From Pseudomonas sp. 8O (lineage in GTDB: Bacteria > Pseudomonadota > Gammaproteobacteria > Pseudomonadales > Pseudomonadaceae), in assembly GCF_902506495.1 (NCBI RefSeq), contig NZ_LR733264.1, positions 496,001-560,000 of the forward strand: 64,000 bases of DNA, in the 5' to 3' direction. Within the stretch, counting starts at the first letter, position 1. Each line of letters starts with the position of its first letter. The position numbers and the translations under genes are program-made. The notes beneath the pieces are model-generated. The model was not told the origin of the DNA. It saw only the letters and a list, made by a program, of their open reading frames with translations, and did not search any database. Positions 26,798 to 41,462 of this stretch are shown here, in pieces.

Positions 26798-27553
26798 TCA
26801 GATCGCCTGACCGCCGGATACCTCGATGCGCTGGGCGTTGATCCAGCGATTCTGCTCGCCGAGCAGGCTGGCGATCATCGGGCCGATGTCGTCCGGCACG
26901 CCGACCCGACCCAGCGCCGTCATGTCCGCGAACACCTTGTTCAGGTCCGGCATGTCACGTACGGCTCCACCCAGGAAATCCGTTTCGATGGCGCCGGGCG
27001 CCACGGTGTTGACTGCGATACCCCGGCTGCCCAGCTCCTTGGCCATATACAGGCTCAGCACTTCCACTGCGCCCTTGACCGCCGAGTAGGCGGAGAAACC
27101 GGGATAGGACACGCGGGTCAGCCCGGACGAGATATTGACGATACGACCGCCATCGGCCATCAGTGGCAGCAACGCCTGGGTGAGGAAGAACACTCCTTTG
27201 AAATGCACGTTCACCAGGGCATCGAACTGAGCTTCAGTAGTGTCGGCAATCGACGCCATGTCGCCATGGCCGGCGTTGTTGATCAGGTGGTCGAAACTGT
27301 CGCGTTGCCAGGTCTCGTTAAGTGCCTGGCGCAGGCGTTGTACGAAGGCCGGAAAGGTGCTGACGTCGCCTGCGTCGAGCTGCAGGGCGACCGCCTTGCG
27401 TCCCTGGGCCTGGATGTCGGCAACCACGGCCTGTGCGGTGTCGGCCTGGCTGTGATAGGTGACGACGACATCGATGTCCTGACGCGCGATGTTCAGCGCA
27501 GTGTTGCGGCCGAGGCCACGGCTGGAGCCGGTTACGATGGCGATCTTGGTCAT
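26798..27553 (-). CDS. Short-chain dehydrogenase/reductase (SDR), AraC-linked
   Basis: A 251-residue classical SDR: cofactor TGSSRGLGRN, NNAGHGD, catalytic NISSGLT and YSAVKGA, C-terminus WINAQRIEVSGGQ. The start is ATG 27553; the frame remains open upstream to 27607 without a better site. It is transcribed divergently from an AraC regulator 140 bases away, which probably controls it. This genomic pairing of an SDR with an AraC_N-type regulator is frequent in pseudomonads. Confidence 0.92.
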   Translation of the reverse strand: MTKIAIVTGSSRGLGRNTALNIARQDIDVVVTYHSQADTAQAVVADIQAQGRKAVALQLDAGDVSTFPAFVQRLRQALNETWQRDSFDHLINNAGHGDMASIADTTEAQFDALVNVHFKGVFFLTQALLPLMADGGRIVNISSGLTRVSYPGFSAYSAVKGAVEVLSLYMAKELGSRGIAVNTVAPGAIETDFLGGAVRDMPDLNKVFADMTALGRVGVPDDIGPMIASLLGEQNRWINAQRIEVSGGQAI

Positions 27554-27692
27554 GGTAAAAATCCTCTCATGGGTGAACGGGATTTCATTGTGTGGCTCGT
27601 GGCGCAACCCCGTCGTTACCGAAACCTCGACGCTTTTTGCCTATTTCTCCAAGAGGAAAAGACATGCTCTGGATCAGCATCAGGAGCCTACG

Positions 27693-28565
27693 ATGAGCGC
27701 AGCGCTGCTGGAGGTTGTGCGCGGTTATCTGAATCGACATGGCCAACCCGGCGGGCTTGCCCAAACGCCCATTCCCGGCTTGACCATCATTCGCACGTCA
27801 GAGCCCAGCGGGCTGGATTACGCCATCACCCGGCCTCTGGCCTGCCTGGTGTTGCAGGGCAGCAAGCGCGTCATGATGGGCACCCGGAGCTTCAACTTCA
27901 GCGCCGGTGATTCGCTGTTGATCACCGCCGACGTACCGACGGTCAGCCAGATCATCCAGGCGAGCCACGAGGTCCCGTATATCTCGCTGGTGATCGACCT
28001 CGATCCTGCACTGCTCACCGAATTGATGGAGGAGATGAAGGCGGTGCCGAGTGCGGAGCTGGAGCCCATCCGCATCGAACCGACCGATAGCGAAGTCGCC
28101 GAAGCGGCACTACGCCTGATGCGACTGCTCGAGCGCCCGGCTTCGGCGACGGTGCTGCATGCGTCGCTTGTGCGCGAACTGCATTACTGGTTGCTGGCTG
28201 GCCGGCATGGCCCGGCGATCAGTCGCCTGGGCTGGCCGGACGGCCATGCGCAACGCATCGCTCGGGCGGTGAAGGTGCTGCGCACCGAATTCACCCGGCC
28301 GCTGCCGGTGGAGCATCTGGCGTCCGTGGCCGGTATGAGTCCGTCATCTTTTCATCACCACTTTCGCAACCAGACATCATTGACGCCGCTGCAATTTCAG
28401 AAACAGCTGCGTCTGATCGAGGCGCGTCGCCTGATGACGGGGGAGGGCGCCACCGCCAGCAGTGCGGCGTTCGCGGTGGGTTACGAAAGTGTGTCGCAGT
28501 TCAGCCGGGAGTACCGCCGGCTGTTCGGCCTGCCGCCGGCGAGAGACGCCAGTGTCGCTTGCTGA
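27693..28565 (+). CDS. AraC family transcriptional regulator
   Basis: A 290-residue regulator. The N-terminal cupin-like AraC_N domain (residues about 20-180; ACLVLQGSKRVMMGTRSFNF, GDSLLITADVPTVSQI) precedes the two-HTH AraC domain (about 190-285; LPVEHLASVAGMSPSSFHHH, ASSAAFAVGYESVSQFSREY). The start is ATG 27693 with AGGAG six bases upstream. It is divergent from an SDR gene, its likely target. Confidence 0.93.
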   Translation: MSAALLEVVRGYLNRHGQPGGLAQTPIPGLTIIRTSEPSGLDYAITRPLACLVLQGSKRVMMGTRSFNFSAGDSLLITADVPTVSQIIQASHEVPYISLVIDLDPALLTELMEEMKAVPSAELEPIRIEPTDSEVAEAALRLMRLLERPASATVLHASLVRELHYWLLAGRHGPAISRLGWPDGHAQRIARAVKVLRTEFTRPLPVEHLASVAGMSPSSFHHHFRNQTSLTPLQFQKQLRLIEARRLMTGEGATASSAAFAVGYESVSQFSREYRRLFGLPPARDASVAC

Positions 28566-28583
28566 CACGAGCAACCGCCTTGC

Positions 28584-29264
28584 TCACACCTGTCTCAGGG
28601 GAAAATCCGCAGGTTCGAAGTGTTCTCTTGCGTCCATGCGAATCCCCCGCAGGCTGCGCATCTCCAGATAGGACGCGTACAGGGGCTCGGCGAAGTAGCT
28701 GATCAGGATCGAGCGGCGACGTGTGCCGAGCCGGTTCAGGCTGCCGGCGTGTATCAGGTCCACATCGAACACCAGGATGTCGCCGGCCGCACCCGCAAGC
28801 TGCACTGAGCGGGACTCGTCGTTGAAATCGAAGGGGGGCTCGCCGGCAGGCGGACGGTGGCTGCTCGGGACGATACGGGTGGCGCCGTTGTCTGGGCCGT
28901 AGTCATCGAAGTAGACCATGGCATTGACGATATCACCCGGGCGCTGCGCCGACAGATCGCGATGCAGTTGCTGATGACCGCCACCAGCCAGTGGCTCGCG
29001 GCCCTCCACCTGCGTGAGGAAGAAACGTTCGCCGATCAGCTCGCCGACCACTGCCAGCAAGTGTGGCAGGCGGCACACAGCCTGAATCGTGGCGTCGTCA
29101 TCCAGCAGCGAGTGATGCCAGTCTGCGCCACGCGGTACCGGCCACTGATCCGAGGGGGTAATGCCCGCATCGAACACGGTGCGCAACCCATCCAGCCACC
29201 CTATAGGAACCGCCTGGCGTAGCAACGCATAGCCGTCGTGGTGGAGTTGTTCGCGGTCCGTCAT
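28584..29264 (-). CDS. Phytanoyl-CoA dioxygenase (PhyH) family protein
   Basis: A 226-residue Fe(II)/2-oxoglutarate-dependent oxygenase with the double-stranded beta-helix facial triad visible: His101-x-Asp103 in LHRDLSAQ and distal His172 in LIHAGS. The Arg cluster RRR at 182-184 can bind 2-oxoglutarate. Bacterial members hydroxylate small molecules; the substrate is unknown. The start is ATG 29264 with AGGAG eight bases upstream, rather than the longer frame to 29453, which runs into the next gene's leader. It is convergent with the AraC gene. Confidence 0.88.
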   Translation of the reverse strand: MTDREQLHHDGYALLRQAVPIGWLDGLRTVFDAGITPSDQWPVPRGADWHHSLLDDDATIQAVCRLPHLLAVVGELIGERFFLTQVEGREPLAGGGHQQLHRDLSAQRPGDIVNAMVYFDDYGPDNGATRIVPSSHRPPAGEPPFDFNDESRSVQLAGAAGDILVFDVDLIHAGSLNRLGTRRRSILISYFAEPLYASYLEMRSLRGIRMDAREHFEPADFPLRQV

Positions 29265-29446
29265 GGTCAGGCTCCTGTCATCCATGCATCCCGAAGAAAA
29301 CAGGTGGAAGTCGAAGAGGCAAGCCAGTTCTTCAATGCATGACTCTCCGTCTGCAAATTCAGCCGCAGGCCATGACCAAGACTGAATACAATGGCGCCTG
29401 AACTTTCCGCGCCATGCACATGGCTGTACCGAACGAGGAACGCCCC

Positions 29447-29932
29447 ATGGCATCCGCAGACAAACAGAAGAAGCGCGCCCAACGGGCCAAGACCAAAGCC
29501 AGGCAGAACCGCATGGGCAAGCCCAAGGCGCAGGTCAATGTCGTCCATCCGATTCTCGCCAACCCGTTGATCAACGAGCCGTTCGATGATGTCGAGATCG
29601 ACCTGAGCACCTTCGATTTCAAGGATATCGAGGAGAATGGCTTCGACCCCGCGCATTTCGATGACCTGTTCCAGGCCATGAAAGCCGGCGAAGGCATCAG
29701 CCTGCTCGCCCTGTGCCTGATATTCCTGCAGTACCCGGTGCTGGAGCTGGTGGTCGCCGAGGAGTCGGAAGAGGCCGCGACCGACTTCATGATGGGCCTG
29801 CTGATCGTCTACCGCGGCATCTTCCACGATGAAGACGAAGACGCCGCGATCACCTGGATCGGCAGCGACGCCTTCCAGAGCGCCTATAACGAAGCGTCGC
29901 TGATCCTGCAGAAGAAGAACGCCCGCGCCTGA
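29447..29932 (+). CDS. Hypothetical protein with acidic mid-region
   Basis: A 161-residue cytosolic protein. A basic N-terminus (KQKKRAQRAKTKARQNRMGK) is followed by strongly acidic stretches (FDDVEIDLSTFDFKDIEENG; HDEDEDAA). No transmembrane segment is certain, though ISLLALCLIFLQYPVLELVV is hydrophobic. The family is not recognised. The start is ATG 29447 with GAGGA seven bases upstream. It is divergent from the PhyH gene. Confidence 0.8.
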   Translation: MASADKQKKRAQRAKTKARQNRMGKPKAQVNVVHPILANPLINEPFDDVEIDLSTFDFKDIEENGFDPAHFDDLFQAMKAGEGISLLALCLIFLQYPVLELVVAEESEEAATDFMMGLLIVYRGIFHDEDEDAAITWIGSDAFQSAYNEASLILQKKNARA

Positions 29933-29945
29933 TTCATTTCGGCAG

Positions 29946-30425
29946 TCAGCCCTTCAGCGCCGCCTCGATTCTGGCAATGTCGATCTTGCTCATGGTCATC
30001 ATCGCCTCGAAGGCGCGTTTGGCCGCTGCGCGATCGGGGCTGGCGATGGCGGCGCTGAGGAGGCGCGGGGTGATCTGCCAGGAGACGCCCCATTCGTCCT
30101 TGCACCAGCCACATTCACTGGCCTGGCCGCCGTGGTCGATGATCGCGTGCCACAGGCGATCCGTCTCGGCCTGATCGTCGGTGGCGACCTGAAACGAGAA
30201 CGCCTCGTTGTGCTGGAATGCCGGGCCGCCATTCAGACCCAGGCAGGGAATGCCCATCACGCTGAACTCCACCGTCAACACATCGCCCTGCTGGCCACTG
30301 GGGTAGTCACCGGGCGCATGGTGGACCGCCAGCACGGCGCTGTCGGGAAAGGTCTTGGCGTAGAAGGTCGCAGCCTCCAGCGCGTCGCGGTCGTACCAGA
30401 GGCAGATGGTGTTCTTGCTGGTCAT
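29946..30425 (-). CDS. VOC-fold protein (PhnB / 3-demethylubiquinone methyltransferase-like)
   Basis: A 159-residue protein of the PF06983 group in the vicinal-oxygen-chelate superfamily. Despite the family name it is not a methyltransferase. Typical text is ICLWYDRDALEAATFYAKTF, GIPCLGLNGGPAFQHNEAFS, CGWCKDEWGVSWQITP and a C-terminal RAFEAMMTMSKIDIARIEAA. It probably binds a small ligand or metal. It ends 13 bases from the convergent hypothetical gene. Confidence 0.9.
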   Translation of the reverse strand: MTSKNTICLWYDRDALEAATFYAKTFPDSAVLAVHHAPGDYPSGQQGDVLTVEFSVMGIPCLGLNGGPAFQHNEAFSFQVATDDQAETDRLWHAIIDHGGQASECGWCKDEWGVSWQITPRLLSAAIASPDRAAAKRAFEAMMTMSKIDIARIEAALKG

Positions 30426-30503
30426 CCTGAGTCTCCCGCCATGGGTTGAGACTCAGCAGTCTAGACGGCAGTGACGCGCTGGCTTGTCCTTGCCTGTTCG
30501 TCG

Positions 30504-31304
30504 TTACGGCTGCGGTTCTGTCATCCAGAACATCGGGAACTGATCGAAGGGGTAGTGCTTGCCATCGTAGCGGACGGTGGTACTGACCTTGCGTAGCACG
30601 GGTTCCTGCCAGCCTGCGCGAACCTGAGCGGTTAGCACCAGGTCGGCATAGCCATGGGCTTGCTTCGACCCAAGGCCCAGCGTCAGGTCGGCTCGCTCCG
30701 ATTGGAAGTCACTATCCGTGACACAGGACGTGCCCTTTAGCGTCGTCCACGAATACAGATAGGTGGCAAACACCGGCCTCAGCCGAGGCCCTTGCGGCAC
30801 TACCAGCGTCAGCAGGTCATTGAAGCCTGCATCCGGACAGCTCGCCCCGCGCGCGACACTGCGCACCACTACACCGAACGCGCGAACGCCTGGCGCCAGG
30901 TGATAGCGCGCGGTATCCAGCCACAGGCTACCGGCATCTATTTCCAGTGCGGCATCTTCGCCAAGGTAGTCGTCATAACGTTCGCGCAATTGCCCGCTCT
31001 GCGTGTCCACCTTCGCCACCAGCCAGTTGAGGTTGCGCTCGCCCGCTGGCGTGGCGTCCTCGGCGTCACGGTAAGCCAGGGTCACCACGGACAACGCCGG
31101 ATCATCCGGCCAGGGCTTGCAGGCAGCCGCCACCAACGGCCCGTCGCCGCGCCCGTCAGGGGGCGTCCAGCCTTGTTGTCCCAGTTGGGTCGCCAGTGAG
31201 TCCAGCAAGGAAGCGTCGCAGGGCTGTGGCTGGCGCGTGTCGGCGTGAGCGAGGGAGAGCAGGCAGAGCGCGAAGGCGGAGACGATGCTGCGTAAACGGT
31301 CCAT
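30504..31304 (-). CDS. Secreted hypothetical protein
   Basis: A 266-residue exported protein: signal peptide MDRLRSIVSAFALCLLSLAHA, then a mature region with four or more Cys (QPCDASLL, AACKPWP, ASCPDAG, TSCVTDS), consistent with periplasmic disulfides. Segments such as SVVTLAYRD and LWLDTARYHLAPGVRAFGVV suggest a beta-sandwich or repeat fold. No family is recognised. The start is set by the signal peptide; the frame upstream to 31466 has no ribosome-binding site. Confidence 0.78.
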   Translation of the reverse strand: MDRLRSIVSAFALCLLSLAHADTRQPQPCDASLLDSLATQLGQQGWTPPDGRGDGPLVAAACKPWPDDPALSVVTLAYRDAEDATPAGERNLNWLVAKVDTQSGQLRERYDDYLGEDAALEIDAGSLWLDTARYHLAPGVRAFGVVVRSVARGASCPDAGFNDLLTLVVPQGPRLRPVFATYLYSWTTLKGTSCVTDSDFQSERADLTLGLGSKQAHGYADLVLTAQVRAGWQEPVLRKVSTTVRYDGKHYPFDQFPMFWMTEPQP

Positions 31305-31546
31305 GTTGGTGAGTCCTTGTTCGACCCCATTCGTCTGAGCGGAAACCGCAGGTGTGGGGTGTGGCGACTTTACGCTGAAAGATGGGAGAGGGTGGAGTAG
31401 CTGGACTATGTGGGAGGCTGCTATCGGCCAAAAGCGGTCATTCCGGAGGAGAAATAGTCTCTCCACTTTTCACCGTTGCGCTTGACCCTATTCCCTCCTT
31501 ACGGCTACATGCGCGTACTGATCAAAAAACCAAGGAAGATCCCCAC

Positions 31547-32005
31547 ATGCCCCGCCTGGTCTGGCTGCGCGACCATATGCAACACAGCGACACCCTGGCG
31601 CAGTGGCTGCATCAGCAGTTCGTATACGAGTTTATCGAGCAGCCCTTGGCCGACTGGCAGCGCGAATTCGCGGAAGGCCAGGGCAACGGTGATTGGCAAT
31701 GCCTGATCGCACTAGAGAATGACCAGCTACTTGGCGGTGCTGCACTCGCCGTCAACGATCTGCCCGAGCGCCCGGAGTTGGGTCCCTGGCTCGCCTGCGT
31801 CTTTATCGCTCCGCAGGCAAGGAAGCGAGGCTTGGCGGAACAGTTGATAGAAGGCATCTGCGCCGCCGCAAAGGCCAACGGCACCACACGGCTGTACCTG
31901 CACACCCATGATCGCAGCGACTACTACTCCAAGCGTGGATGGCAGGTGCAGGAATTTTTTCAGGCCTGGGGCAAGGAGCAGCGGTTGATGCTGCTAGATC
32001 TCTGA
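31547..32005 (+). CDS. GNAT family N-acetyltransferase
   Basis: A 152-residue acetyl-CoA-dependent acetyltransferase. The cofactor-binding motif A appears as ACVFIAPQARKRGLAEQLIE and the C-terminal strand as RLYLHTHDRSDYYSKRGWQV. The substrate is unknown. AAGGAAG lies upstream of ATG 31547. It is the last ordinary gene before the small RT/defence locus. Confidence 0.88.
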   Translation: MPRLVWLRDHMQHSDTLAQWLHQQFVYEFIEQPLADWQREFAEGQGNGDWQCLIALENDQLLGGAALAVNDLPERPELGPWLACVFIAPQARKRGLAEQLIEGICAAAKANGTTRLYLHTHDRSDYYSKRGWQVQEFFQAWGKEQRLMLLDL

Positions 32006-32124
32006 ACTCGCCTAGGTTTGAAGAAGAAGGTAGAGAGCAAAAATCTGGGAAAGCGGATGCTCGCAACAGGGATGAACAGGCCAGTAGCTGTTGATGCAGG
32101 AGCATCAATATCGTGGTCTGTCCC

Positions 32125-32182
32125 CAATTGTTTCAGTCCCCAATTGTTTCAATTGTTTCGCAATTGTTTCGCCAATTGTTTC
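32125..32182. repeat. Five irregular copies of CAATTGTTTC
   Basis: The decamer starts at 32125, 32141, 32150, 32161 and 32173, that is at spacings of 16, 9, 11 and 12 bases. It forms the 3' end of the short minus-strand ORF and is preceded by GTGGTCTGTCCCC. The latter text is, from memory, common in repeats near REP-associated transposase genes. Confidence 0.85.
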
Positions 32183-32363
32183 GCTTCGCTTTGCCAATGG
32201 TTTGCCCTTGCTGCTTTGGATCATGTTTAGAAAGACCGGCGGTATTTACTTGAAACTCAATGTCGGCATGGGATGGCTCGCGATAATTGCCATTATTTCC
32301 TGAGTCGTCTACAAGCTGCGCCAATGCATGGACGATCGTATCTGTAAGCGGGATGGTATTCAT
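32133..32363 (-). pseudogene. Short Abi-like N-terminal fragment downstream of the RT gene
   Basis: A 76-codon ORF from ATG 32363. The first about 62 residues look like a real domain (TIVHALAQLVDDSGNNGNYR, EPSHADIEFQ, LSKHDPKQQGQTIGKAKR). From memory, this arrangement resembles the N-terminal AbiJ-NTD3-type region of abortive-infection proteins, but I cannot confirm it. The remaining residues (NNWRNNCETIETIGD) are encoded by the CAATTGTTTC repeats, so the gene seems cut off there. It is codirectional with and 135 bases downstream of the RT-nitrilase gene. It could be a remnant or a small accessory. Confidence 0.5.
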
Positions 32364-32498
32364 AAGCCTCTCACCCTTTCCCTGCGGCTGACTATCCGAG
32401 TGCCAGCGAATGTGGTGCGTTGAACTGATGTGACTCAACAAATCTATCGCGCATCAGCAGTGCAAAGCGTTGTTCTCTATACCTATTCATTTTCTAAT

Positions 32499-35400
32499 TT
32501 ATGCCTTGGGTAATACTTTCCGATCCGCGGCCATATCCTCGCTAAAACCATCTGGTACAGGCTTAAAACCTGAGGCTGGCGAGCGGTGGCTGGACTGGAA
32601 CTGGCGCAGGCTCAATACGTCGATTTCACCTGTAATGCAGTAGTCGTGGTTGCCACCCTTGACGCGCAATATGTCGCGTTTCCAGCGGTCCTTGTATGGG
32701 GCGCGGATACGGCTATCACCGAAGCGGCGGTTGTTGCACTGGATGATGTAGGCATGAATATCTAGGGCGGCAGACTCCACCAGCGCATTGAATGTGTCGG
32801 TGTCGCTGTTCCACTCTGGGACAAACAGCGCATCGACCTGGCCGCGTAGGTCAGCGCGGTAGCGGATATTCGTCAGCTCGCTACAAATCATGATGGCAAA
32901 GCGGAATTCACCATGCTGGATGACCGGAGGCTTTTGCCACTGCTGTTCTTGAGCGGGCTTCAGCTGTAGGCCAGCCAGACGAAAGAGTTCTTGCTCCTCA
33001 TGGAATGCTGGACGTTGTTTATCCTGGCGATAGAGCATCAGCGAAGGGAACCCAAGACCGTCGTGGGTGAGCGAAGCCCAAACCTGGTGGCGTACATACT
33101 TTTTCGGCGCGTGGAGGTACTCGACCCCGGTGATCAAAGATATGCCACGGCCCTTGAGCTTGTCGGCGATACGCATAAACCATTGGGGTGGTAATGCCAC
33201 TTCCGGGAGGATCAAGTAACCGGCGCCGTCAGGCCGAGAGATTAGTTCGTTGATCAGGCGATTGATCCGTTGGTAACGGTGCAGACCGTCCGGGTCGGGC
33301 AATCCCATGATCGCGGCGGTAAAGCTTTCATCTTTGGTTTCCAAGCTCGCTACAGCGATGGTCTGCTTGGCTTTGGGATCTCCGTCGGGGATATACAACA
33401 CCTGCTTTTTGTCGAGGTGCGGCATCTTGTGCTCAGTCAGCTCAAAGCCTCGTAGTGCCTGCACCACCAGCCCCAGGGTCTGGCGGCTGGAGGCAGCAAA
33501 AGGAGTGGGCACTATGAGGTAGAGCTCATTGAGGCTGAACGGTCGAGTGGCAAAGGTAAGTCCAGGCGGTGTACCGCGTTTAAACCTGAGCCAATTCGCC
33601 AGCGTGGCTATGCCGTCGCTCATCTCATCAGGCAGCAATTTCTCTAAGTCAGCAGTTGTGAGGTTTTTACGGAGTGGAATACCGCGCTGGCTGACCATTT
33701 CCTGAGGAAGGCCTGCAAAGCGAAGGGGAATATGGGCAAGGTCGAAGCTGAACATACGAGCTTGAAGCTTCTGTATGTTCTGGCTGGTGATGTTCATTGG
33801 CCTGTCCAGGAAGTTACTCCAGATGATGAAGGCAAGGCTCTCCATATGGCTTGTCATCTGGTTCTTCCAGGCGGTAGCCCCCGACTTGCTTAGGCGGGAA
33901 GGAAAAGCTGAAACGATGCTCTGCGCTGTAACTTCCCAGATAGATCGTTTCCACAAATGTCGGGCTTCGGCTGGCACGTCGGTCACGGTCAGACTTTTGA
34001 TCTCCAGAGTGCAGTCATTTTCAACTTTGTTGATTAGGCCAGTGAGTGCGCTGATGATCTTGTCTAGGTACTCAAAATCTTCACAGGCCGTAGCCATACG
34101 GATGATACGTGGCAGGTATTGAGCCAGCTCGAAGAACTTCGCCGGGGTCAGCAGATGCTCAATGACTGCGGCGAAAAAGGCATGACGGTGTGCTTGCCAG
34201 TCCTCTGGGGGGATATCACGTTCGAAGGCTTCGTAGTTGCGGAGGCTGAGTGCAAAGCCAGCTCGGTGCAGCGTCAGAGCATCAGTTTTGCGTAGGTTGT
34301 CTGCTTGCTCACCGGCCAGGTTGGTAGCTTTGAGCAGATCCGTTGCCACGGTGTTGGGCGAATTCGGCAGGTCCGGTAAAGCGCGCCATTCGCTGGCACG
34401 TTGGTTGATCTGTTCGGAAATGGCGTTGACCAGAGCGGTGCCTGCAGAGCCCCCAAGTATGAACAGCTTGTTTTTGCTGTTTTCAAAAGCGATGCGGTCC
34501 TTTTTGAGATAGTCAGGCTTGAACAGGATGCTGCCTTTATCTTTTTTGAGCAGATCCTTTCCGCCGTCGCGACTAAAAATCCACTCCCAAAACTGCTCGG
34601 TGCTTTTGATGTCGCTGGCGTTTTCCATGACCAGCAGAATGTCATCCACATAACGACCGTAATAAAGCGGTACCACTTGTTGCTCGATGAACTGGTCGAG
34701 CTTGAGTAGCGCGGCGTTTGCGACTACAGCAGACGCAGGCAAACCGACGGGTAAACCTTTTTTCAGCGGTGTTTCTTGTGCCCAGGCCAACAAGGCGGAG
34801 ATGAACAGGCGGTTAAGTTTTGACTGCGATTCGCTCAGCTCAATTTGGGCTAACTTGAGGAAGCTATCATCGAGCATAAAGCCGGGGCTTAGCTCGTGAT
34901 AGAAACTGCTTACATCGGCTGTCAGGGCTAATACTTTTTTCTTCTCGCTCAGGGCAGTGCGCATCGCCTTGATGCCACCGTCGCGCCACTCGCGAAAGGG
35001 CCTGAGGTAAGGTTTGAAGGAGCCAAGTGCCCACGTGTTGATCTCGTCATGCCGGTTACGACGTAGGCGGCTGCCAAAGACGTTGCTGCTGAGCTGCTTG
35101 TCGAAGAGACCGCCGACTTCCATCATCCAGAGCGATGACAGCACGTGAAAGTCGATGCTGCAGCGGGCCATGAGGCGGAATACGGCGGTGGGTTGATTGC
35201 CGGCCTCCGTCGCGCTTAGCCACTCAGCTTCCGGTGAGGCGAAGATCAGGCTTTGATCCTTCTCTGCCTTCTCTGGCCGGATTTCTTTGGGTGCCAGCGT
35301 CCAAGTGCCGAGAAAATCGGGCTCTTTCACCCAATCCTCGCTACTGGCTTCAATCTGTTCTTTCAGACGAGCAAGGTTTTTGCCCAGATCATCTTCATAG

Positions 35401-35510
35401 TCGACGATGTCGAACAGCGAGGGGTTGGTTGAGTAGTAGAGGTCAACCTTGGCCTTGCGGTAGGCAAGGCCAAGGTCGGAAAGCGATACCGATATTTGAG
35501 CGACGTCCAT
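32499..35510 (-). CDS. Reverse transcriptase-nitrilase fusion, type 1 defence-associated RT (DRT1/UG1)
   Basis: A 1003-residue protein. The N-terminal half is a reverse transcriptase with catalytic Asp199 in LTADVSSFYHEL, the GLPVGLPAS motif and the YVDD box (Asp289-Asp290). The C-terminal third is a nitrilase/amidase-like domain with the candidate triad Glu770 (LPEVALP), Lys831 (YRQDKQRP) and Cys876 (MICSELTN). The RT-nitrilase architecture is that of DRT1 (UG1), an experimentally established antiphage RT class. The middle (about 380-690) is helical with no recognised domain. The start has an AAGG site. GC content is lower than in the neighbours, supporting transfer. No integrase is adjacent. 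Confidence 0.93.
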   Translation of the reverse strand: MDVAQISVSLSDLGLAYRKAKVDLYYSTNPSLFDIVDYEDDLGKNLARLKEQIEASSEDWVKEPDFLGTWTLAPKEIRPEKAEKDQSLIFASPEAEWLSATEAGNQPTAVFRLMARCSIDFHVLSSLWMMEVGGLFDKQLSSNVFGSRLRRNRHDEINTWALGSFKPYLRPFREWRDGGIKAMRTALSEKKKVLALTADVSSFYHELSPGFMLDDSFLKLAQIELSESQSKLNRLFISALLAWAQETPLKKGLPVGLPASAVVANAALLKLDQFIEQQVVPLYYGRYVDDILLVMENASDIKSTEQFWEWIFSRDGGKDLLKKDKGSILFKPDYLKKDRIAFENSKNKLFILGGSAGTALVNAISEQINQRASEWRALPDLPNSPNTVATDLLKATNLAGEQADNLRKTDALTLHRAGFALSLRNYEAFERDIPPEDWQAHRHAFFAAVIEHLLTPAKFFELAQYLPRIIRMATACEDFEYLDKIISALTGLINKVENDCTLEIKSLTVTDVPAEARHLWKRSIWEVTAQSIVSAFPSRLSKSGATAWKNQMTSHMESLAFIIWSNFLDRPMNITSQNIQKLQARMFSFDLAHIPLRFAGLPQEMVSQRGIPLRKNLTTADLEKLLPDEMSDGIATLANWLRFKRGTPPGLTFATRPFSLNELYLIVPTPFAASSRQTLGLVVQALRGFELTEHKMPHLDKKQVLYIPDGDPKAKQTIAVASLETKDESFTAAIMGLPDPDGLHRYQRINRLINELISRPDGAGYLILPEVALPPQWFMRIADKLKGRGISLITGVEYLHAPKKYVRHQVWASLTHDGLGFPSLMLYRQDKQRPAFHEEQELFRLAGLQLKPAQEQQWQKPPVIQHGEFRFAIMICSELTNIRYRADLRGQVDALFVPEWNSDTDTFNALVESAALDIHAYIIQCNNRRFGDSRIRAPYKDRWKRDILRVKGGNHDYCITGEIDVLSLRQFQSSHRSPASGFKPVPDGFSEDMAADRKVLPKA

Positions 35511-35794
35511 TTCTTAACCTTCGGCAATCCTGAGATATCCCGGATATTACCGAATGCACGCATGACTGGGCGAAAGTAATGCAAAGTGCTCGATCTCTAC
35601 TAAAAGGTTGTCATGAATAGACTACCGGACTACCCATAGGCAATTTAACGGGCAGCTTTTGGCCGGTAGGCGCCTGTCGTGACAGGCTGTAACTGGCCAG
35701 AGCAGCGAACACTATTTCCGTTTTTAAGCCATGTCTGCGGCGAATACACAAACGCCGCGAGCTACGTGAGGCCGCATTTGAATAATGCGATGAA
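35511..35794. other. 284-bp upstream region of the RT gene with hairpins
   Basis: No gene is seen. A nested fold lies at 35660-35699: outer TGGCC/GGCCA (35660-35664, 35695-35699) around inner GCCTGTC/GACAGGC (35672-35678, 35681-35687). A second hairpin, GCGGCG/CGCCGC, is at 35737-35742 with 35753-35758. The region could carry a promoter, leader or non-coding RNA for the RT; this is inference. Confidence 0.4.
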
Positions 35795-36733
35795 CTACCC
35801 AGCCTGACTATTCGATTCGTTGAACTGGGATGCTCGAGAATCGGCTACGAGAGTGATGAACTCACGCACCCATCTGAAGCCGGCGTGTCCGTCTGACCGC
35901 TCATGCCAGAACATGCCAATCGCAAAACCTTCCACCGGCAATGGCGGGGCTACGCACAGCAACTGCTCGTCGCGACCTTCTACAAGACGTCGTGGCACCA
36001 GGGCCACACAATCCGACTGCGCGACCAACTCCGGTACTGGAAGAAATGACGACGCAGACAGGACTACGTTACGCCGCAGCCCTCGCGCTACCAAGGCGTT
36101 ATCCACCGACGTAGAGAAGCCTCCGCCGCGTAGTGACACCACCACATGTTCCAGCTGCGCGAACTCATCCACCGTCAGGTCCGCGCGCAGGCTTGGATGC
36201 CCACGACGTCCAATCAGCACATAACTCTCATCGTAGAGGTGTTGCGAGTGGAGTGCTGGCGGAGCCCCGTTCATGTTTATCACGGCCAGATCCACTTCGC
36301 CGCGGGTCATCTGCAGCTCCAGCTGTGGTACGTCCAGGATGCGCAGTGCGATACGGACACCCGGCGCTTCGGGTCGCATGGCGACGACGAGATGCTTGAT
36401 CAAGGCCGCCTGCACGTAATCCGTGCAGGCGATTGATACCGTCAGGCTCGCCGTCGCAGGCTCGAAATTCAGGTGAGTAGTGACGGTGGCCCTTACTTGG
36501 TCAAGTGCTTGGCGAAGCGGCACCAGCAGCTCCAAGGCTTTGACGGTGGGGGTCATTCCACGCTGCGCGGGGACCAGAAGAGGGTCATTGAAGACATCGC
36601 GCAGACGGCTCAACTGCGCGCTGACTGCTGGCTGGCTCAAATGCAGACGGGCGGCGGCCCTGGTCACATTCTGCTCGATGAGAAGGGCCTCCAACGTCAC
36701 AAGCAGATTGAGATCAAGGCGTCTGGTATCCAT
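35795..36733 (-). CDS. LysR family transcriptional regulator
   Basis: A 312-residue LysR protein of the NodD/LinR-like group, starting MDTRRLDLNLLVTLEALLIE with HTH text NVTRAAARLHLSQPAVSAQL and the hallmark FNDPLLVPAQRGMTPT. The effector domain runs from about 95. The start is ATG 36733; a GTG at 36769 is possible. It is divergent from a flavodoxin-fold reductase 90 bases away, its probable target. Confidence 0.92.
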   Translation of the reverse strand: MDTRRLDLNLLVTLEALLIEQNVTRAAARLHLSQPAVSAQLSRLRDVFNDPLLVPAQRGMTPTVKALELLVPLRQALDQVRATVTTHLNFEPATASLTVSIACTDYVQAALIKHLVVAMRPEAPGVRIALRILDVPQLELQMTRGEVDLAVINMNGAPPALHSQHLYDESYVLIGRRGHPSLRADLTVDEFAQLEHVVVSLRGGGFSTSVDNALVARGLRRNVVLSASSFLPVPELVAQSDCVALVPRRLVEGRDEQLLCVAPPLPVEGFAIGMFWHERSDGHAGFRWVREFITLVADSRASQFNESNSQAG

Positions 36734-36822
36734 CGAACTTATGCTAGCAGGAAAATTTTGCGATTTCACAGAGGGTCCGAGCCCCGCGACACTCCAGCGA
36801 CATTACAGCGGAGCCGTCCTTC

Positions 36823-37641
36823 ATGTCGAAAAAAGTACTGATCATCTATGCCCATCCCGAGCCTTCGTCGCTAACGCGGCAACTGGTGGATGTCTCTGTT
36901 GAATGCTTGACTGCGCAAGGGCACGAGGTCCTGCAATCCGATCTATACGCCATGGGCTGGAAAGCAACGTTCGACGAGCACGACTTTCCCGATCGAGCGA
37001 ACACTCAGCGGCTATCGTTTGGCGCAGAGTCTGCTCACGCATATCGTCATGGCCGCCAGACCGCCGACGTAGCGGCAGAGCAAGACAAGGTCATTGCGGC
37101 AGATGCCGTGATCTTTCAGTTCCCGCTTTGGTGGTACGGTATGCCGGCCATCATGAAGGGATGGATAGATCGTGTTTGGGCAGCCGGACTTGCCCACAAC
37201 TTCAAGGACGCAGGCAACACCTATCGCTACGGAGATGGGGCCTTCAAGGGCAAGCGGGCCATGTTGTCAGTCGCTGTCGGTGGCCCCGCAGAAGATTACT
37301 CGCCGCGCGGTATCAACGGACCACTTGAGCAATTGCTGTTTCCGATCACGCACGGCTCGCTCTACTTCCCAGGGTTCGATGTGCTGCCTACGTTCGCCGT
37401 ATACGGCACTGGCCACTTGACTGCCGTCGGTGCTGACGCGGCCAAGGAGGCTTGGCGCAGCCGTCTGGAGGGTTTGTTCGAGGACGCGCCGATACCCTTC
37501 CGGCCCCAGAATGGTGGGGACTACACGCCCCGCAACGAGCTTGAACCGCATGTGGCCGTGGGCCAGACGGGGATAACGGCGCATGTTGCTGATGGCGAAA
37601 CAACTCAGCGGCAGCAGCTGGAAACGGAGGGGGCGTTATGA
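36823..37641 (+). CDS. NAD(P)H dehydrogenase (quinone)/flavodoxin-fold oxidoreductase
   Basis: A 272-residue NQO1/KefF-type flavoprotein that reduces quinones by two electrons. Landmarks are the phosphate-binding start KKVLIIYAHPEPSSLTRQLV, the flavin motif FQFPLWWYGMPAIMKGWIDR and VGGPAEDYSPRGINGPLEQL. The C-terminal 40 residues (GGDYTPRNELEP onward) extend beyond the core. It sits divergent to a LysR gene and overlaps a YciI-like gene by four bases, making a two-gene LysR-controlled unit for quinone or electrophile stress. Confidence 0.93.
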   Translation: MSKKVLIIYAHPEPSSLTRQLVDVSVECLTAQGHEVLQSDLYAMGWKATFDEHDFPDRANTQRLSFGAESAHAYRHGRQTADVAAEQDKVIAADAVIFQFPLWWYGMPAIMKGWIDRVWAAGLAHNFKDAGNTYRYGDGAFKGKRAMLSVAVGGPAEDYSPRGINGPLEQLLFPITHGSLYFPGFDVLPTFAVYGTGHLTAVGADAAKEAWRSRLEGLFEDAPIPFRPQNGGDYTPRNELEPHVAVGQTGITAHVADGETTQRQQLETEGAL

Positions 37642-37928
37642 AAACCTTCGTGATTCTGACTCGCCGCGCTGATGGAGCGGCAGATGACTTCAAGCGACTG
37701 GCGAAACCGGAGGTATTGCATGTTTGGCAAGGCTTCGCCGACGGCATTGTTCGCGCGGTCCATGGGCTGGCCGCTGGCCCCGGTGCAGCGTTTGAGCTGG
37801 AGTCCGCCACCTTCGAAGAGGCGCGCGATTACATCGAGGCGCTGCCTTACGTTCAAGAGAATCTGCTACACGTGCAGTATTGCGCGCTCAAGCCTTTCTC
37901 TGACTACGAGAGACTCGTTTCCGCCTGA
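37638..37928 (+). CDS. YciI-like / dimeric alpha-beta barrel protein
   Basis: A 96-residue protein of ferredoxin-like alpha/beta fold: MKTFVILTRRADGAADDFKR, VRAVHGLAAGPGAAFELESA, FEEARDYIEALPYVQENL. It resembles YciI-type or muconolactone-isomerase-like small barrels that bind or isomerise aromatic metabolites; no catalytic residue can be assigned. ATG 37638 overlaps the preceding stop. A 9-base hairpin (37968-37976 with 37989-37997) follows in the otherwise empty 37929-38224. Confidence 0.78.
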   Translation: MKTFVILTRRADGAADDFKRLAKPEVLHVWQGFADGIVRAVHGLAAGPGAAFELESATFEEARDYIEALPYVQENLLHVQYCALKPFSDYERLVSA

Positions 37929-38224
37929 TTAACGATCAGCGCAGATCAACTCCGTTTGCACGGCGCTGCATGCTGCAGCGATTTGCTCGCAGCATGCACG
38001 TTGCGCCAGGCCGGGACTCGTTTGATGTGAGGTGGGCCCGTACTGAGTCAGACGGTGCCCGTACGCTGTGCTCTATCCAATCGATGTGAATCAGTTCCGC
38101 GGAGCAGCCCTTAGGGTCCCTCGATCCCGCCGATAAATCTGCTTTCTGCTGGTATTGTGCAGATCCAACTGCACCTGGGCGGTCAGGCTTAAAAGCATGC
38201 AAGCCAATTTCTGTGGATCAGAGC

Positions 38225-39154
38225 ATGAATAAACTATCTGAGATGCATGCTTTCGTTGCGGTAGTGGACAGCGGGAGTATTTCCGAGGCCGCTCGTCGTT
38301 TGGGCACGGCCAAGTCGATGGTTTCTCAGCGCATTCAGCAACTCGAGAAACGTCTAGGATGCATCCTGCTCGAGCGTGGCCGGCAGACTCGCCTGACTGA
38401 GTCGGGTGAGGTTTTTTACCGTCATTGCACCGGAATTCTCGCTGACATAGAAAATGCCGAGAATGCAGTTCTGACGTCTCAGTCGAGTGTCCGTGGGGAT
38501 TTGCGCATCGCTGCTCCGATGGCTTTCGGCATGAGATATCTGACGCCGATTTTGGCCTCTTTTTCCAAGCAATATCCTGAGTTGTCTCTGGACGTTGAGT
38601 TCGACGACCGGCGCGTCAACTTGCATGAAGAGGGCTTTGATGCGGCGGTGCGTATAGGCGAGTTGCCGGACTCTTCCCTGGTGGCCAAGACCATTACTCC
38701 CAACCGCCATATCATCTGCGCCAGCCCTGACTATCTGAATGCACATGGCACGCCACAGACACCACAAGACCTGGCTCAGCATTTCGCCTTGCTCTATGTC
38801 AATCGCGAACCACATGGCATGTGGACGCTACCGGTGAACGACACATTGGAGTCATTTCGTGTGCGCTGCCGAATGCGCACCAACTGTGGTCATCAGCTCA
38901 TGGAAGCGGCGAAAGCAGGCCTCGGTCTGGCTATATTGCCCACCTTTCTGGCCGCGCAGGCCATCGTGGACGGTGAGCTGATAGAGGTGTTGGAGCCTTA
39001 TGCTCCGCGAGGCGGCAATATTTCTGTGGTCTATCGCCAATCGCAAAAAGGCTCGCACAAGCTTCACGCACTGAGCAGCTTCCTTAGCGAGCAGATCGGC
39101 AACCCGCCAATATGGGACCAGATGCTGGCAACCAGTTCGCAATCCCGGCAGTGA
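38225..39154 (+). CDS. LysR family transcriptional regulator
   Basis: A 309-residue LysR protein of the CrgA/AaeR-like group: MNKLSEMHAFVAVVDSGSIS, AARRLGTAKSMVSQRIQQLE, RGRQTRLTESGEVFY, and effector domain text VRGDLRIAAPMAFGMRYLTP and FDAAVRIGELPDSSL. The start is ATG 38225; a GTG 12 bases earlier is an alternative. No adjacent target is obvious; the nearest gene downstream is 600 bases away. Confidence 0.91.
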   Translation: MNKLSEMHAFVAVVDSGSISEAARRLGTAKSMVSQRIQQLEKRLGCILLERGRQTRLTESGEVFYRHCTGILADIENAENAVLTSQSSVRGDLRIAAPMAFGMRYLTPILASFSKQYPELSLDVEFDDRRVNLHEEGFDAAVRIGELPDSSLVAKTITPNRHIICASPDYLNAHGTPQTPQDLAQHFALLYVNREPHGMWTLPVNDTLESFRVRCRMRTNCGHQLMEAAKAGLGLAILPTFLAAQAIVDGELIEVLEPYAPRGGNISVVYRQSQKGSHKLHALSSFLSEQIGNPPIWDQMLATSSQSRQ

Positions 39155-39749
39155 GTCGTTCGAGAAAAACGAAACACCGATTCGATTTTTCCAGGCTTAT
39201 GGAGAGGGTCTCTCCGACTTATCCTTTTTTCAGCTGAGCGCGCTGTACGCGAAAGGATCAGTGTCAACGTTCCATACCCCTCGCCGTGGCGTGTTTGCCA
39301 GGATGTATTCGGCTAACCCGTGTGGTTTGGTGCGTGGAACCAGGCCTATTGGCAGGCCGGTAAAGGCTTATGGCTAGGCTACCGTTCAGAGCAACGATTA
39401 TGAGATTGCCTGAAATTGCAGGTGCAAGCGTCAGTCACTGCGTTCACCCCGGTCCTCGAGCGGGCATTCACCTGGTAATCGAAGCAATGGGGGAGAGGCT
39501 TCGTGTAGCGCCCGGCTTTCGCTCAATCCAGCGACTTGAGCCGTGGCCGTCTTAGTTGATCAGCCCTTGATCATGGCTCCAGCGCTATCCGTTAACCCTG
39601 CGCCGCCCTGGCGGCTTCTCCGGAGCAGGCCCGCTCTGCGCATCCATACTGACTGGAACCGTGTGATATCACGATCACTCGCTTCGGTCCTCTTATTCGG
39701 TGGCACAGATCCATCAAGCCGCTCAAAACAATAATCGAGGCCTCCTTCA
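39155..39749. other. 595-bp intergenic stretch before the sigma-54 activator
   Basis: Short open frames (for example 39370-39555) lack ribosome-binding sites and family features. A small hairpin GGAGAG/CTCTCC (39201-39206, 39210-39215) with a T-rich stretch 10 bases beyond could end the LysR transcript. No other supported feature is seen. Confidence 0.5.
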
Positions 39750-41462
39750 ATGGCTATCAGCTACAAGCCGGAGCTGCAGTATTCCGGCTTTCAGGACCTA
39801 AGCGATCAGGTTCGCTTCCAAAGCACAGAAGGTAAAATCTGGTTTGGTGAGCAGCGCATGTTGCTGATGCAGGTGTCGGCGATGGCTAGTTTGCGCCGTG
39901 AACTCATCAATACCCTCGGCATCGAGCGCGCAAAAGGGTTCTTCATGCGCCTTGGCTACCAATCCGGGCTCAAGGACGCCGAATTGGCCCGCAAGCTCAG
40001 GCCAAACAGTCCGGAACTGGAGATGTTCCTGGTTGGACCGCATTTGCACTCCTTGAAAGGCATGGTCAATCCGAAACCCATCCAGTTGGAACTGGATCAG
40101 GAGACCGGCCACTTCTATTGCGAGCTTGAATGGGTTGATTCATTCGAGGTCGAGACCTGCCTGACGGAGGTGGGTGTGATGGATGAGCCGGTTTGCTGGT
40201 CCTTGCTGGGCTACGCATGTGCGCACTGCTCTTCGTTCATGAAACGCGAAATCATCATTCAGGAAACGAGCTGCCGCGGGTGTGGTGATGAGCGCTGCAT
40301 CATCATAGGGAAACCCGCTGAGGAATGGGAGAACGCAGCAGAGTTCAGAAAGTACTTTCAAAGCGACCCCATCATCGAGGAGCTGTATGAACTGCAATCG
40401 CAGGTCAGCTCACTGCGCACGAGCCTAGAGAAGCAGGAAGGCCAGTACTACGGTATCGGGCGCTCCCCTGCCTATATGAAGGTCTGCAAGACGATCGACA
40501 AGGCAGCCAAGGGCAAGATTTCGGTCCTGTTGCTCGGAGAAACCGGTGTCGGCAAGGAGGTCATCGCTCGCAGCGTGCATCTTCGCAGCGATCGCGCCGA
40601 GCAAGCCTTTGTCGCGGTGAACTGTGCTGCCATTGCGCAGGACTTGATCGAGGCTGAACTGTTCGGCGTTGAGAAAGGCGCTTATACCGGCGCCAATCAG
40701 ACCCGCCCGGGGCGCTTCGAGCGCGCTAGCGGCGGGACCATCTTTCTGGACGAGGTGGTAGAGCTGACGCCCAGAGCGCAGGCGACCTTATTAAGGGTGC
40801 TGCAAGAGGGGGAACTCGAACGTGTGGGGGGCTCTCGGACCCATAAGGTCGATGTGCGAGTCATTGCGGCCACCAATGAGAGTCTCGCCGATGCGGTCGA
40901 GGCAGGCCGGTTTCGCGCGGATCTTTATTATCGCCTGAACGTTTTTCCGGTTCAGGTCCCCCCTCTGCGTGATCGGCTCGAGGACCTGCCGCTGCTGGTC
41001 GAGCACTTTCTAAGCAAGTTTCATCTGCAGTATCACAAGCGCACGCTAGGTTTGTCGGACAAGGCACTAGAGCTGTGTCTAAGTTACGCGTGGCCTGGAA
41101 ATATCCGCGAATTGGAGAATGTGATTGAACGCGGCGTCATCTTGACTGACAGCAACGAAACCATAGGACAGGACGCGCTCTTTGCGGTTTTCCCGAAGGC
41201 CGGCACTGTGCGTGGTGATCGTCTTAACGCCGATGGCGCGCTGGTTCAGGCTGAGGACACAGCAAGCTCGGCCGATTGGGTCACGCAAATCTTCGAACGA
41301 AACATAAGCCTGGAAGCTGTAGAAGAACAGCTGATGCGACGGGCAATGGACCATGCTCAGCAAAACGTTGCGCAAGCCGCTCGAATCCTGGGATTAACTC
41401 GACCTGCGCTAGCTTATCGTCTTAAGAAAAGCGACATCCTTGATGAGGAGGCAACTGAGTAA
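39750..41462 (+). CDS. Sigma-54-dependent activator of the XylR/DmpR type (XylR_N-V4R-AAA-Fis HTH)
   Basis: A 570-residue enhancer-binding protein. The N-terminal XylR_N effector domain (about 20-115; EGKIWFGEQRMLLMQVSAMA) is followed by V4R (about 140-205; CAHCSSFMKREIIIQETSCR with the Cys cluster). The AAA+ core has Walker A GETGVGKE at 263-270, sigma-54-contacting GAYTGA at 310-315 (GAFTGA variant) and Walker B GGTIFLDEV. The C-terminal Fis-type HTH is NVAQAARILGLTRPALAYRL. Relatives bind aromatic effectors directly. A -24/-12 promoter with two upstream sites lies just downstream, pointing to the SnoaL-like/ALDH genes as targets. Confidence 0.95.
   Translation: MAISYKPELQYSGFQDLSDQVRFQSTEGKIWFGEQRMLLMQVSAMASLRRELINTLGIERAKGFFMRLGYQSGLKDAELARKLRPNSPELEMFLVGPHLHSLKGMVNPKPIQLELDQETGHFYCELEWVDSFEVETCLTEVGVMDEPVCWSLLGYACAHCSSFMKREIIIQETSCRGCGDERCIIIGKPAEEWENAAEFRKYFQSDPIIEELYELQSQVSSLRTSLEKQEGQYYGIGRSPAYMKVCKTIDKAAKGKISVLLLGETGVGKEVIARSVHLRSDRAEQAFVAVNCAAIAQDLIEAELFGVEKGAYTGANQTRPGRFERASGGTIFLDEVVELTPRAQATLLRVLQEGELERVGGSRTHKVDVRVIAATNESLADAVEAGRFRADLYYRLNVFPVQVPPLRDRLEDLPLLVEHFLSKFHLQYHKRTLGLSDKALELCLSYAWPGNIRELENVIERGVILTDSNETIGQDALFAVFPKAGTVRGDRLNADGALVQAEDTASSADWVTQIFERNISLEAVEEQLMRRAMDHAQQNVAQAARILGLTRPALAYRLKKSDILDEEATE

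Follow-up and report, generated by a model that had tools for sequence, protein, structure and literature searches.

A gene at positions 32499-35510 of a 64,000-nucleotide stretch of Pseudomonas sp. 8O (GCF_902506495.1, contig NZ_LR733264.1, positions 496,001 to 560,000; hereafter the window) is, judged by its profile matches and the phylogeny of its reverse transcriptase (RT) domain, an intact UG5-nitrilase RT. As such it is a class 3 UG/Abi RT of defence type and a member of a known family. The encoded protein fuses an RT to a domain with a predicted nitrilase fold, and both sets of active-site residues are complete. We propose, at a probability of about 0.7, that this UG5-nitrilase is a single-gene defence system acting in the manner of DRT1, in which self-primed, template-free DNA would build and restrain a nitrilase that stops or kills the infected cell. 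This mode of action is the most likely one for the window protein because its catalytic residues and the Lys, Pro, and Gly of its lid are common to both UG5 clades and DRT1.

Architecture of the window protein

The open reading frame (ORF) runs uninterrupted from an ATG start to a TAA stop codon and encodes 1003 residues, as the first-pass annotation of this DNA had it. In 500 shuffles of its own bases, the longest stop-free run reached at most 295 codons. The lower GC content noted at that stage was also confirmed, at 0.543 for the ORF versus 0.622 for the window. An AlphaFold2 model of the full protein was obtained with a mean predicted local distance difference test score (pLDDT) of 87.0 and a predicted template modeling score (pTM) of 0.88. 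The model comprises an N-terminal RT, an α-helical middle region, and a C-terminal nitrilase-fold domain (Table 1). The nitrilase domain gave no Pfam match at E-values up to 1, and was picked up by PADLOC profiles, by phmmer against DRT1 (9yfd), and by fold search. AbiA, DRT9, and DRT2 were among the Foldseek matches. In both fold searches, which covered entries up to 2026-04-08, the structure 9yfd is missing from the 50 matches listed; this is uninformative on kinship. Nitrilase-superfamily amidases such as that of Geobacillus pallidus (4kzf, 12% identity) are stand-alone enzymes, unlike the RT fusion described here.

Assignment to UG5-nitrilase

The PADLOC model RT_UG5-nitrilase (PDLC03780) matched residues 7-1002 with 1023.9 bits. 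Among the best 25 of 73 matches, the runner-up was a second RT_UG5-nitrilase model (156.2 bits), and RTasNitrilase (147.5 bits) led the models of other names; Drt1a scored 88.5 bits. As a yardstick, the plasmid-encoded DRT1 proteins L043 and L044 score 1890 and 1383 bits, respectively, with their best Drt1a models, and 124-128 bits with the UG5-nitrilase model. Models for group II introns and retrons remained far under their NCBIfam cut-offs (group_II_RT_mat, 22.1 of 300; retron_St85_RT, 40.3 of 235).

We also built an RT-domain tree of 59 rows sampled from the hits, in which each row took its group label from the search that had retrieved it. The UG5-nitrilase subclades c1 (20 rows, the window included) and c2 (16 rows) were united with support of 100/100, and DRT1 (20 rows) and UG5-nitrilase were each confined to one side of a branch. 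The three outgroup rows sit at the ends of very long branches, and the tree has an arbitrary root. The RT thus groups with UG5, apart from UG1, and with neither group II introns nor retrons, the two placements that had been named as fatal to the initial UG1 assignment. Given the PADLOC scores and the tree, the family name UG1/DRT1 in the first-pass annotation is wrong, while its description of an RT of defence type joined to a nitrilase is right.

DRT1 (UG1; 9yfd) nevertheless resembles the window protein closely in plan. In both, RT and nitrilase lie on a single chain, the RT aspartates, the nitrilase Glu-Lys-Glu-Cys set, and the lid Lys, Pro, and Gly align, and the nitrilase part matches 9yfd. 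Against an identity with DRT1 stand the Drt1a score, lower by more than an order of magnitude than both the UG5-nitrilase score and those of true DRT1 proteins, the separate place on the RT tree, and the length of 1003 residues versus approximately 1230 in DRT1. The proteins differ further in that the DRT1 primer S402 falls in another column than S373, our candidate priming residue, and that lid residue Ala1223 corresponds to Asp987 here. We give identity with DRT1 a negligible chance, and rejected it on the profile score and the RT tree.

With UG5-nitrilase RTs (PDLC03780), the window protein shares the domain order, a whole-length profile match, all active-site residues, and the C-terminal lid motif. 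It belongs to subclade c1, whose members have approximately 1000 residues; those of c2 have approximately 1064-1080, and identity between c1 and c2 is approximately 30%. UG5 is listed among the anti-phage defence families. To our knowledge, the class 1 Abi polymerases AbiA, AbiK, and AbiP2 are without a nitrilase, as are the class 2 systems DRT9 and DRT2. In PMC13275509, the class 1 enzymes are described as RTs performing template-free, protein-primed synthesis, and DRT9 and DRT2, which have the RT fold in common with the window protein, as having operons that encode a non-coding RNA. Class 3 enzymes are defined there as multidomain proteins that combine an RT with a nitrilase or phosphohydrolase domain, and the window protein fits this definition by PADLOC, Pfam, and fold search. 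From its name, the 'DRT5L' of that study is probably UG5-nitrilase.

A Leptospira plasmid RT of 1167 amino acids with a nitrilase part (L048:1-3504) scored 143.7 bits with the UG5-nitrilase model and 65.9 bits with Drt1a, and may represent a further class 3 lineage.

Active sites and the C-terminal lid

To compare the active sites, we aligned 242 sequences, comprising 60 of the 118 length-filtered c1 hits, 60 of the 120 c2 hits, the window protein, L045-L047, all 116 length-filtered DRT1 hits, L044, and L048, the last being left out of the counts. The hits behind the c1, c2, and DRT1 sets were in each case the 120 best listed, out of totals of 980, 1894, and 565, respectively. Conservation was counted over 63 c1, 61 c2, and 117 DRT1 sequences, always given in this order. 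The DRT1 reference was P0268 (Serratia, 1229 residues), whose numbering agrees with that used in the DRT1 paper, with D324-D325, S402, C1116, K1219, and A1223 all in place.

The RT motifs and the nitrilase triad proposed from the sequence alone lie where they had been placed and align with their DRT1 counterparts (Table 1), the RVT_1 match also exceeding its cut-off. The misalignment of the nitrilase residues that had been named as another ground for refutation was thus not seen. D289 is kept in all sequences of the three groups and D290 in 62/63, 61/61, and 117/117. E838 is the fourth residue, completing the nitrilase set of E770, K831, and C876.

These counts bear on an alternative in which the nitrilase of the UG5 enzyme is an oligomerization scaffold alone and the effect is exerted by the DNA product, as it may be in the class 1 Abi polymerases. 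The presence of AbiA among the Foldseek matches is in keeping with it, as is the report that the nitrilase domain supplies all contacts within the DRT1 tetramer (PMC13275509). A scaffold, however, would have no need of the four nitrilase catalytic residues, which are kept in 63/63, 61/61, and 116-117/117 sequences, and the DRT1 mutation C1116A abolishes immunity (PMC13275509). We therefore regard a pure scaffold as improbable. The C1116A result also renders partly outdated the earlier remark that the role of the nitrilase part is not settled.

The C-terminal motif K983-P-V-P-D-G-F989 occupies the same alignment columns as the DRT1 lid. K983, P986, and G988 are each present in 63/63, 61/61, and 116/117 sequences. 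In DRT1, four residues follow lid residue F1225 before the C-terminal end. The C-terminal segment of DRT1 caps the nitrilase pocket of another chain, and changes of conserved lid residues, including K1219A and A1223F, were the most damaging, with plaquing up to four orders higher; A1223F abolishes defence (PMC13275509). The alignment suggests that UG5 and DRT1 have a lid in common, with its middle residue changed, and that it may work in the same way.

Table 1. Features of the UG5-nitrilase locus, in window coordinates. Conservation is given as c1, c2, DRT1.
Feature	Position	Strand	Evidence
UG5-nitrilase defence-associated reverse transcriptase gene	32499..35510	-	ORF list; PADLOC PDLC03780; AlphaFold2
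RT domain core (RVT_1), residues 139-302	34605..35096	-	Pfam PF00078, 38.8 bits, cut-off 29.6
α-helical middle region, residues 407-687	33450..34292	-	DSSP of AlphaFold2 model
Nitrilase-fold domain, residues 712-991	32538..33377	-	
D199, RT motif A aspartate (DRT1 D212)	34914..34916	-	63/63, 61/61, 117/117
D289-D290 of Y287-V288-D289-D290 (YVDD; DRT1 D324-D325)	34641..34646	-	Alignment
S373, proposed priming serine (prediction)	34392..34394	-	Conservation and model
E770, nitrilase catalytic Glu (DRT1 E1017)	33201..33203	-	63/63, 61/61, 117/117
K831, nitrilase catalytic Lys (DRT1 K1077)	33018..33020	-	63/63, 61/61, 116/117
E838, second nitrilase Glu (DRT1 E1084)	32997..32999	-	63/63, 61/61, 117/117
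C876, nitrilase nucleophile (DRT1 C1116)	32883..32885	-	phmmer and alignment; 63/63, 61/61, 117/117
K983-P-V-P-D-G-F989, counterpart of DRT1 lid K1219-T-Q-P-A-G-F1225	32544..32564	-	Same alignment columns
Leader hairpin directly 5' of start codon; 3' arm holds GAAGG ribosome-binding sequence	35517..35557	-	Conservation and folding
Left inverted repeat CGGCCAAAAGCGGTC, end of segment shared with G063	31425..31439	+	
Right inverted repeat CGGCCAAAAGCTGCC, 5' edge of conserved cassette	35651..35665	-	
Exchangeable segment; G063 has 1.36 kb of other sequence in its place	31440..35650	.	L079 comparison
GNAT acetyltransferase gene inside segment	31541..32005	+	Pfam PF00583, 43.5 bits
76-codon remnant, with an Abi_C protein as its intact relative in L009	32133..32363	-	Matches L009 DNA at 98% as far as 32181

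Candidate priming residue

In DRT1, DNA synthesis is primed on S402, within a region (382-478) unresolved in the structure (PMC13275509). To find a possible counterpart, we compared 247 UG5-nitrilase proteins (the window protein, eight fetched loci, 118 c1 hits, and 120 c2 hits). The position of S373 is Ser in 246 of them and Thr in one, and within window residues 288-464 it is the sole Ser, Thr, or Tyr kept in at least 95%. In the AlphaFold2 model, S373 comes after helix 354-371, in a block (371-380) of lower confidence with a mean pLDDT of 64.

In the profile-profile alignment, S373 of c1 fell on DRT1 column 397, five residues ahead of S402, and the c2 profile placed the same serine there; the alignment thus did not bear out an equivalence of S373 with S402. 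S402 itself is Ser in 117/117 DRT1 sequences, and hhalign from UG5 either stops short of it (c1) or places an Arg there (c2). DRT1 residues 400-401 are missing in 76/117 sequences, so the DRT1 loop reads E-L-S402 in most. The c2 loop reads E-L-S-S373, and anchoring the two loops by eye brings the serines within one residue of each other. Sections 4-10 of PMC13275509 give in vitro DNA synthesis for DRT5S/L, without primer site or immunity data, and no UG5 primer residue was found in the literature consulted. A separate UG5-small gene, sought to learn whether UG5-small carries the S373 serine, was found neither in 229 genomes of the class (E 1e-15) nor in 299 genomes of the phylum (E 1e-20); each search returned three hits, the window gene included, all in frames of 954-1078 codons.

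S373 is predicted as the primer because it is near-invariant, is the sole such residue in 288-464, and follows helix 354-371. With the offset to column 397 weighed as well, it is the best candidate, at somewhat under even odds.

A proposed DRT1-like mode of action

Purified class 3 enzymes (DRT1, DRT5S, and DRT5L) make template-free DNA that is covalently linked to protein. DRT1 immunity depends on both active sites, the priming serine, and the lid; DNA drives the assembly of DRT1 into tetramers and filaments, and the role proposed for the lid is to lock the nitrilase (PMC13275509). By analogy, and on the strength of the shared residues, the RT part of the window protein would make DNA without a template, with its own polypeptide as the primer and S373 as the possible site of attachment. 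The attached DNA, likely short, would build an oligomer and hold the nitrilase in check, with the C-terminal lid keeping it closed until infection. Once freed, the nitrilase effector would act on an essential small molecule, stopping or killing the phage-infected cell.

Several observations weigh against this reading. A phmmer comparison of the window protein with 9yfd gave a single significant stretch, of 111 nitrilase residues, and the UG5 stem in the RT tree measures 4.23 changes per column, placing the RT domains of UG5 and DRT1 far apart. According to PMC13275509, other class 3 enzymes do not keep S402, and S373 lies five columns away from it. Within the lid, F989 is kept in 63/63 c1 and 60/61 c2 sequences and in just 49/117 of DRT1, and DRT1 A1223 is replaced by D987 in the window protein and, in the remaining UG5 rows displayed, by Asp or Glu. 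We found no antiphage test of a UG5-nitrilase in the literature searched, the immunity tests in the available part of PMC13275509 being of DRT1. Lastly, among 15 neighborhoods, a defence gene was identified in five and an integrase alone in three, and no conserved partner gene emerged; the neighbor genes scanned were picked by eye, with none scanned in L004, L007, L082, L083, L084, and L156.

Leader hairpin

The 50 nt that precede the start codon are alike in the 10 closest of the 17 distinct loci and can form a hairpin; it is absent in the seven more distant loci. In L007 and L155, the outer upstream sequence is lost and the last 50 nt are kept. Folding against shuffles covered five of the 10 loci, all close relatives, and gave z-scores of -2.29 for the window and -3.30, -1.56 (L007, weak), -3.78, and -3.43 for the other four. 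Since the 3' arm holds the ribosome-binding sequence, the hairpin may limit translation of the RT-nitrilase gene. A DNA operator with dyad symmetry, to which a protein binds, would account for it equally well.

Conservation ahead of the gene, extending over approximately 155 bp in eight close loci and over the last 50 nt in the 10, could also point to an unrecognized non-coding RNA beside it, as in an RNA-templated system of class 2 style. Against this, Rfam gave no match at E-values up to 0.1 for positions 31000-36000, the upstream stretch is unalignable in the distant loci L010, L046, L047, L082, L083, L153, and L154, and class 3 enzymes synthesize DNA in the presence of RNase A and without a template (PMC13275509). 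We consider RNA templating very unlikely, and retain the template-free, DRT1-like reading.

Inverted repeats and an exchangeable segment

The RT-nitrilase gene lies in a 4.2-kb segment between two inward-facing copies of CGGCCAAAAGC(G/T)G. These are the sole matches to the 15-base pattern in the window with at most one mismatch, and 1 of 100 window shuffles reached two matches. The exact 15-mer CGGCCAAAAGCNGNC has three copies in the 5.22-Mb genome, two of them at the segment ends, versus one for the reversed control. A 19-base pattern derived from the left repeat, searched with three mismatches, gave four hits versus four for the control, and misses the right copy. As this pattern equals its control, the repeat is not an abundant dispersed repeat in its own genome. 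Related repeats are scattered in the genomes of several relatives; by eye, these resemble half of a longer palindrome.

In G063 (L079), both outer flanks (26798-31441 and 35648-41113) are kept at 91-95%, and the 1.36 kb found between them hold a 346-codon gene with a sub-threshold MORN_2 match. Its copy of the left repeat, CGGCCAGGAGCGG, has two differences. Among 10 loci of at least 88% identity (L003 and L152, the same contig, counted once), conserved sequence starts at the right repeat, approximately 155-160 bp ahead of the start codon, in eight: the window, L003, L004, L005, L006 (degenerate), L008, L009, and L084, and not in L007 or L155. Four of the eight (the window, L003, L004, and L084) have an inward copy within 2 kb downstream. 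The gene may thus move in segments exchanged at inverted repeats; homologous recombination in the shared flanks is an alternative.

The first-pass annotation had the gene standing alone, without an integrase. No integrase was found among the nine neighboring window ORFs scanned, which matched an AraC-type regulator, PhyH, 3-dmu-9_3-mt, GNAT, LysR, and a flavodoxin-like protein, with three giving no match. The gene is not alone, however, as an acetyltransferase gene and the broken start of an Abi_C-type gene lie with it between the inward-facing inverted repeats. The broken gene is a 76-codon remnant that has no Pfam match itself; its intact relative in S. stutzeri (L009:9166-10011) matches Abi_C at 53.8 bits. 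At positions 32133-32200, the remnant ends in a short-repeat run of CAATTGTTTC and variants.

This broken neighbor, together with a copy cut short beside an rve-domain transposase in G014 (L155), could be taken to mean that the RT-nitrilase gene is itself a decaying, functionless remnant. Its intact frame, the presence of all catalytic residues and the lid, and 99% identity to the intact S. stutzeri copy in L009 make decay highly improbable.

We also considered the features of the locus as one scheme, a DNA-leashed nitrilase, in which S373 in place of the DRT1 serine would carry the DNA, the KPVPDGF lid would plug a neighboring nitrilase, the hairpin would ration the protein, and the gene would travel as a cassette between inverted repeats serving as exchange sites for Pseudomonas defence genes. 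In this complete form the scheme is speculative, and on balance unlikely.

Distribution and genomic context

Full-length copies were present in seven of 398 sampled genomes of the genus, the Pseudomonas sp. 8O genome included; one more genome had the first 192 residues alone and one a copy of the c2 kind. In two loci (L010:4055-10859 and L154:4674-12979), the gene lies inside a BREX locus, between one ORF that matches the N-terminal part of PglX and another that matches its C-terminal part, and BrxC or PglZ is found close by; L154 has two further ORFs between the PglX pieces. The copy in L155:6090-7522 stops after 194 codons and lies downstream of type I restriction genes. On the side where the window has its remnant, L003 carries a gene with AbiJ_NTD3 and Abi_C matches; L009 has an Abi gene. 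A tyrosine integrase lies upstream in L005, L006, and L008, and the single neighbor scanned in L153 is a 2-oxoglutarate (2OG) oxygenase.

Beyond the genus, two of 5,426 E. coli genomes matched, with a DNA match over 32% of the query; the one E. coli locus opened has an annotated type I restriction operon and an integrase adjoining tRNA-Leu. Sixteen plasmid records matched, of which three from S. meliloti (54%) and two from E. coli (30%) reached at least 80% protein coverage. No match was found in 50,697 phage records at E 1e-3. Of 50 IMG/VR loci, four (L102-L105) held long relatives of 29-33% identity, and the other 46 matched short RT stretches.

The Pseudomonas sp. 8O genome encodes two further RTs of defence type, namely a Drt8 (466 bits; L002, G000:C2, ~232.4 kb) and a Drt3a (474 bits; L170:509-1732, G000:C6, ~1328.3-1329.5 kb).

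Implications for class 3 reverse transcriptases

Class 3 enzymes are described as the least characterized of the UG/Abi RTs (PMC13275509). The interest of this gene lies in its testable primer and lid and in its repeat-bounded segment. This copy reduces the class 3 questions to single point-mutation tests, namely S373A, C876A, and K983A. The inverted-repeat edges offer a lead on the integrase-free swapping of single defence genes between chromosomes. The conserved lid residues suggest that nitrilase control is also common to UG5 and DRT1. Should S373 be the primer, the DNA would sit on a different residue in each of the two RT-nitrilase lineages, close to the same end of a helix, and the leash would be a class 3 principle and not a peculiarity of DRT1.

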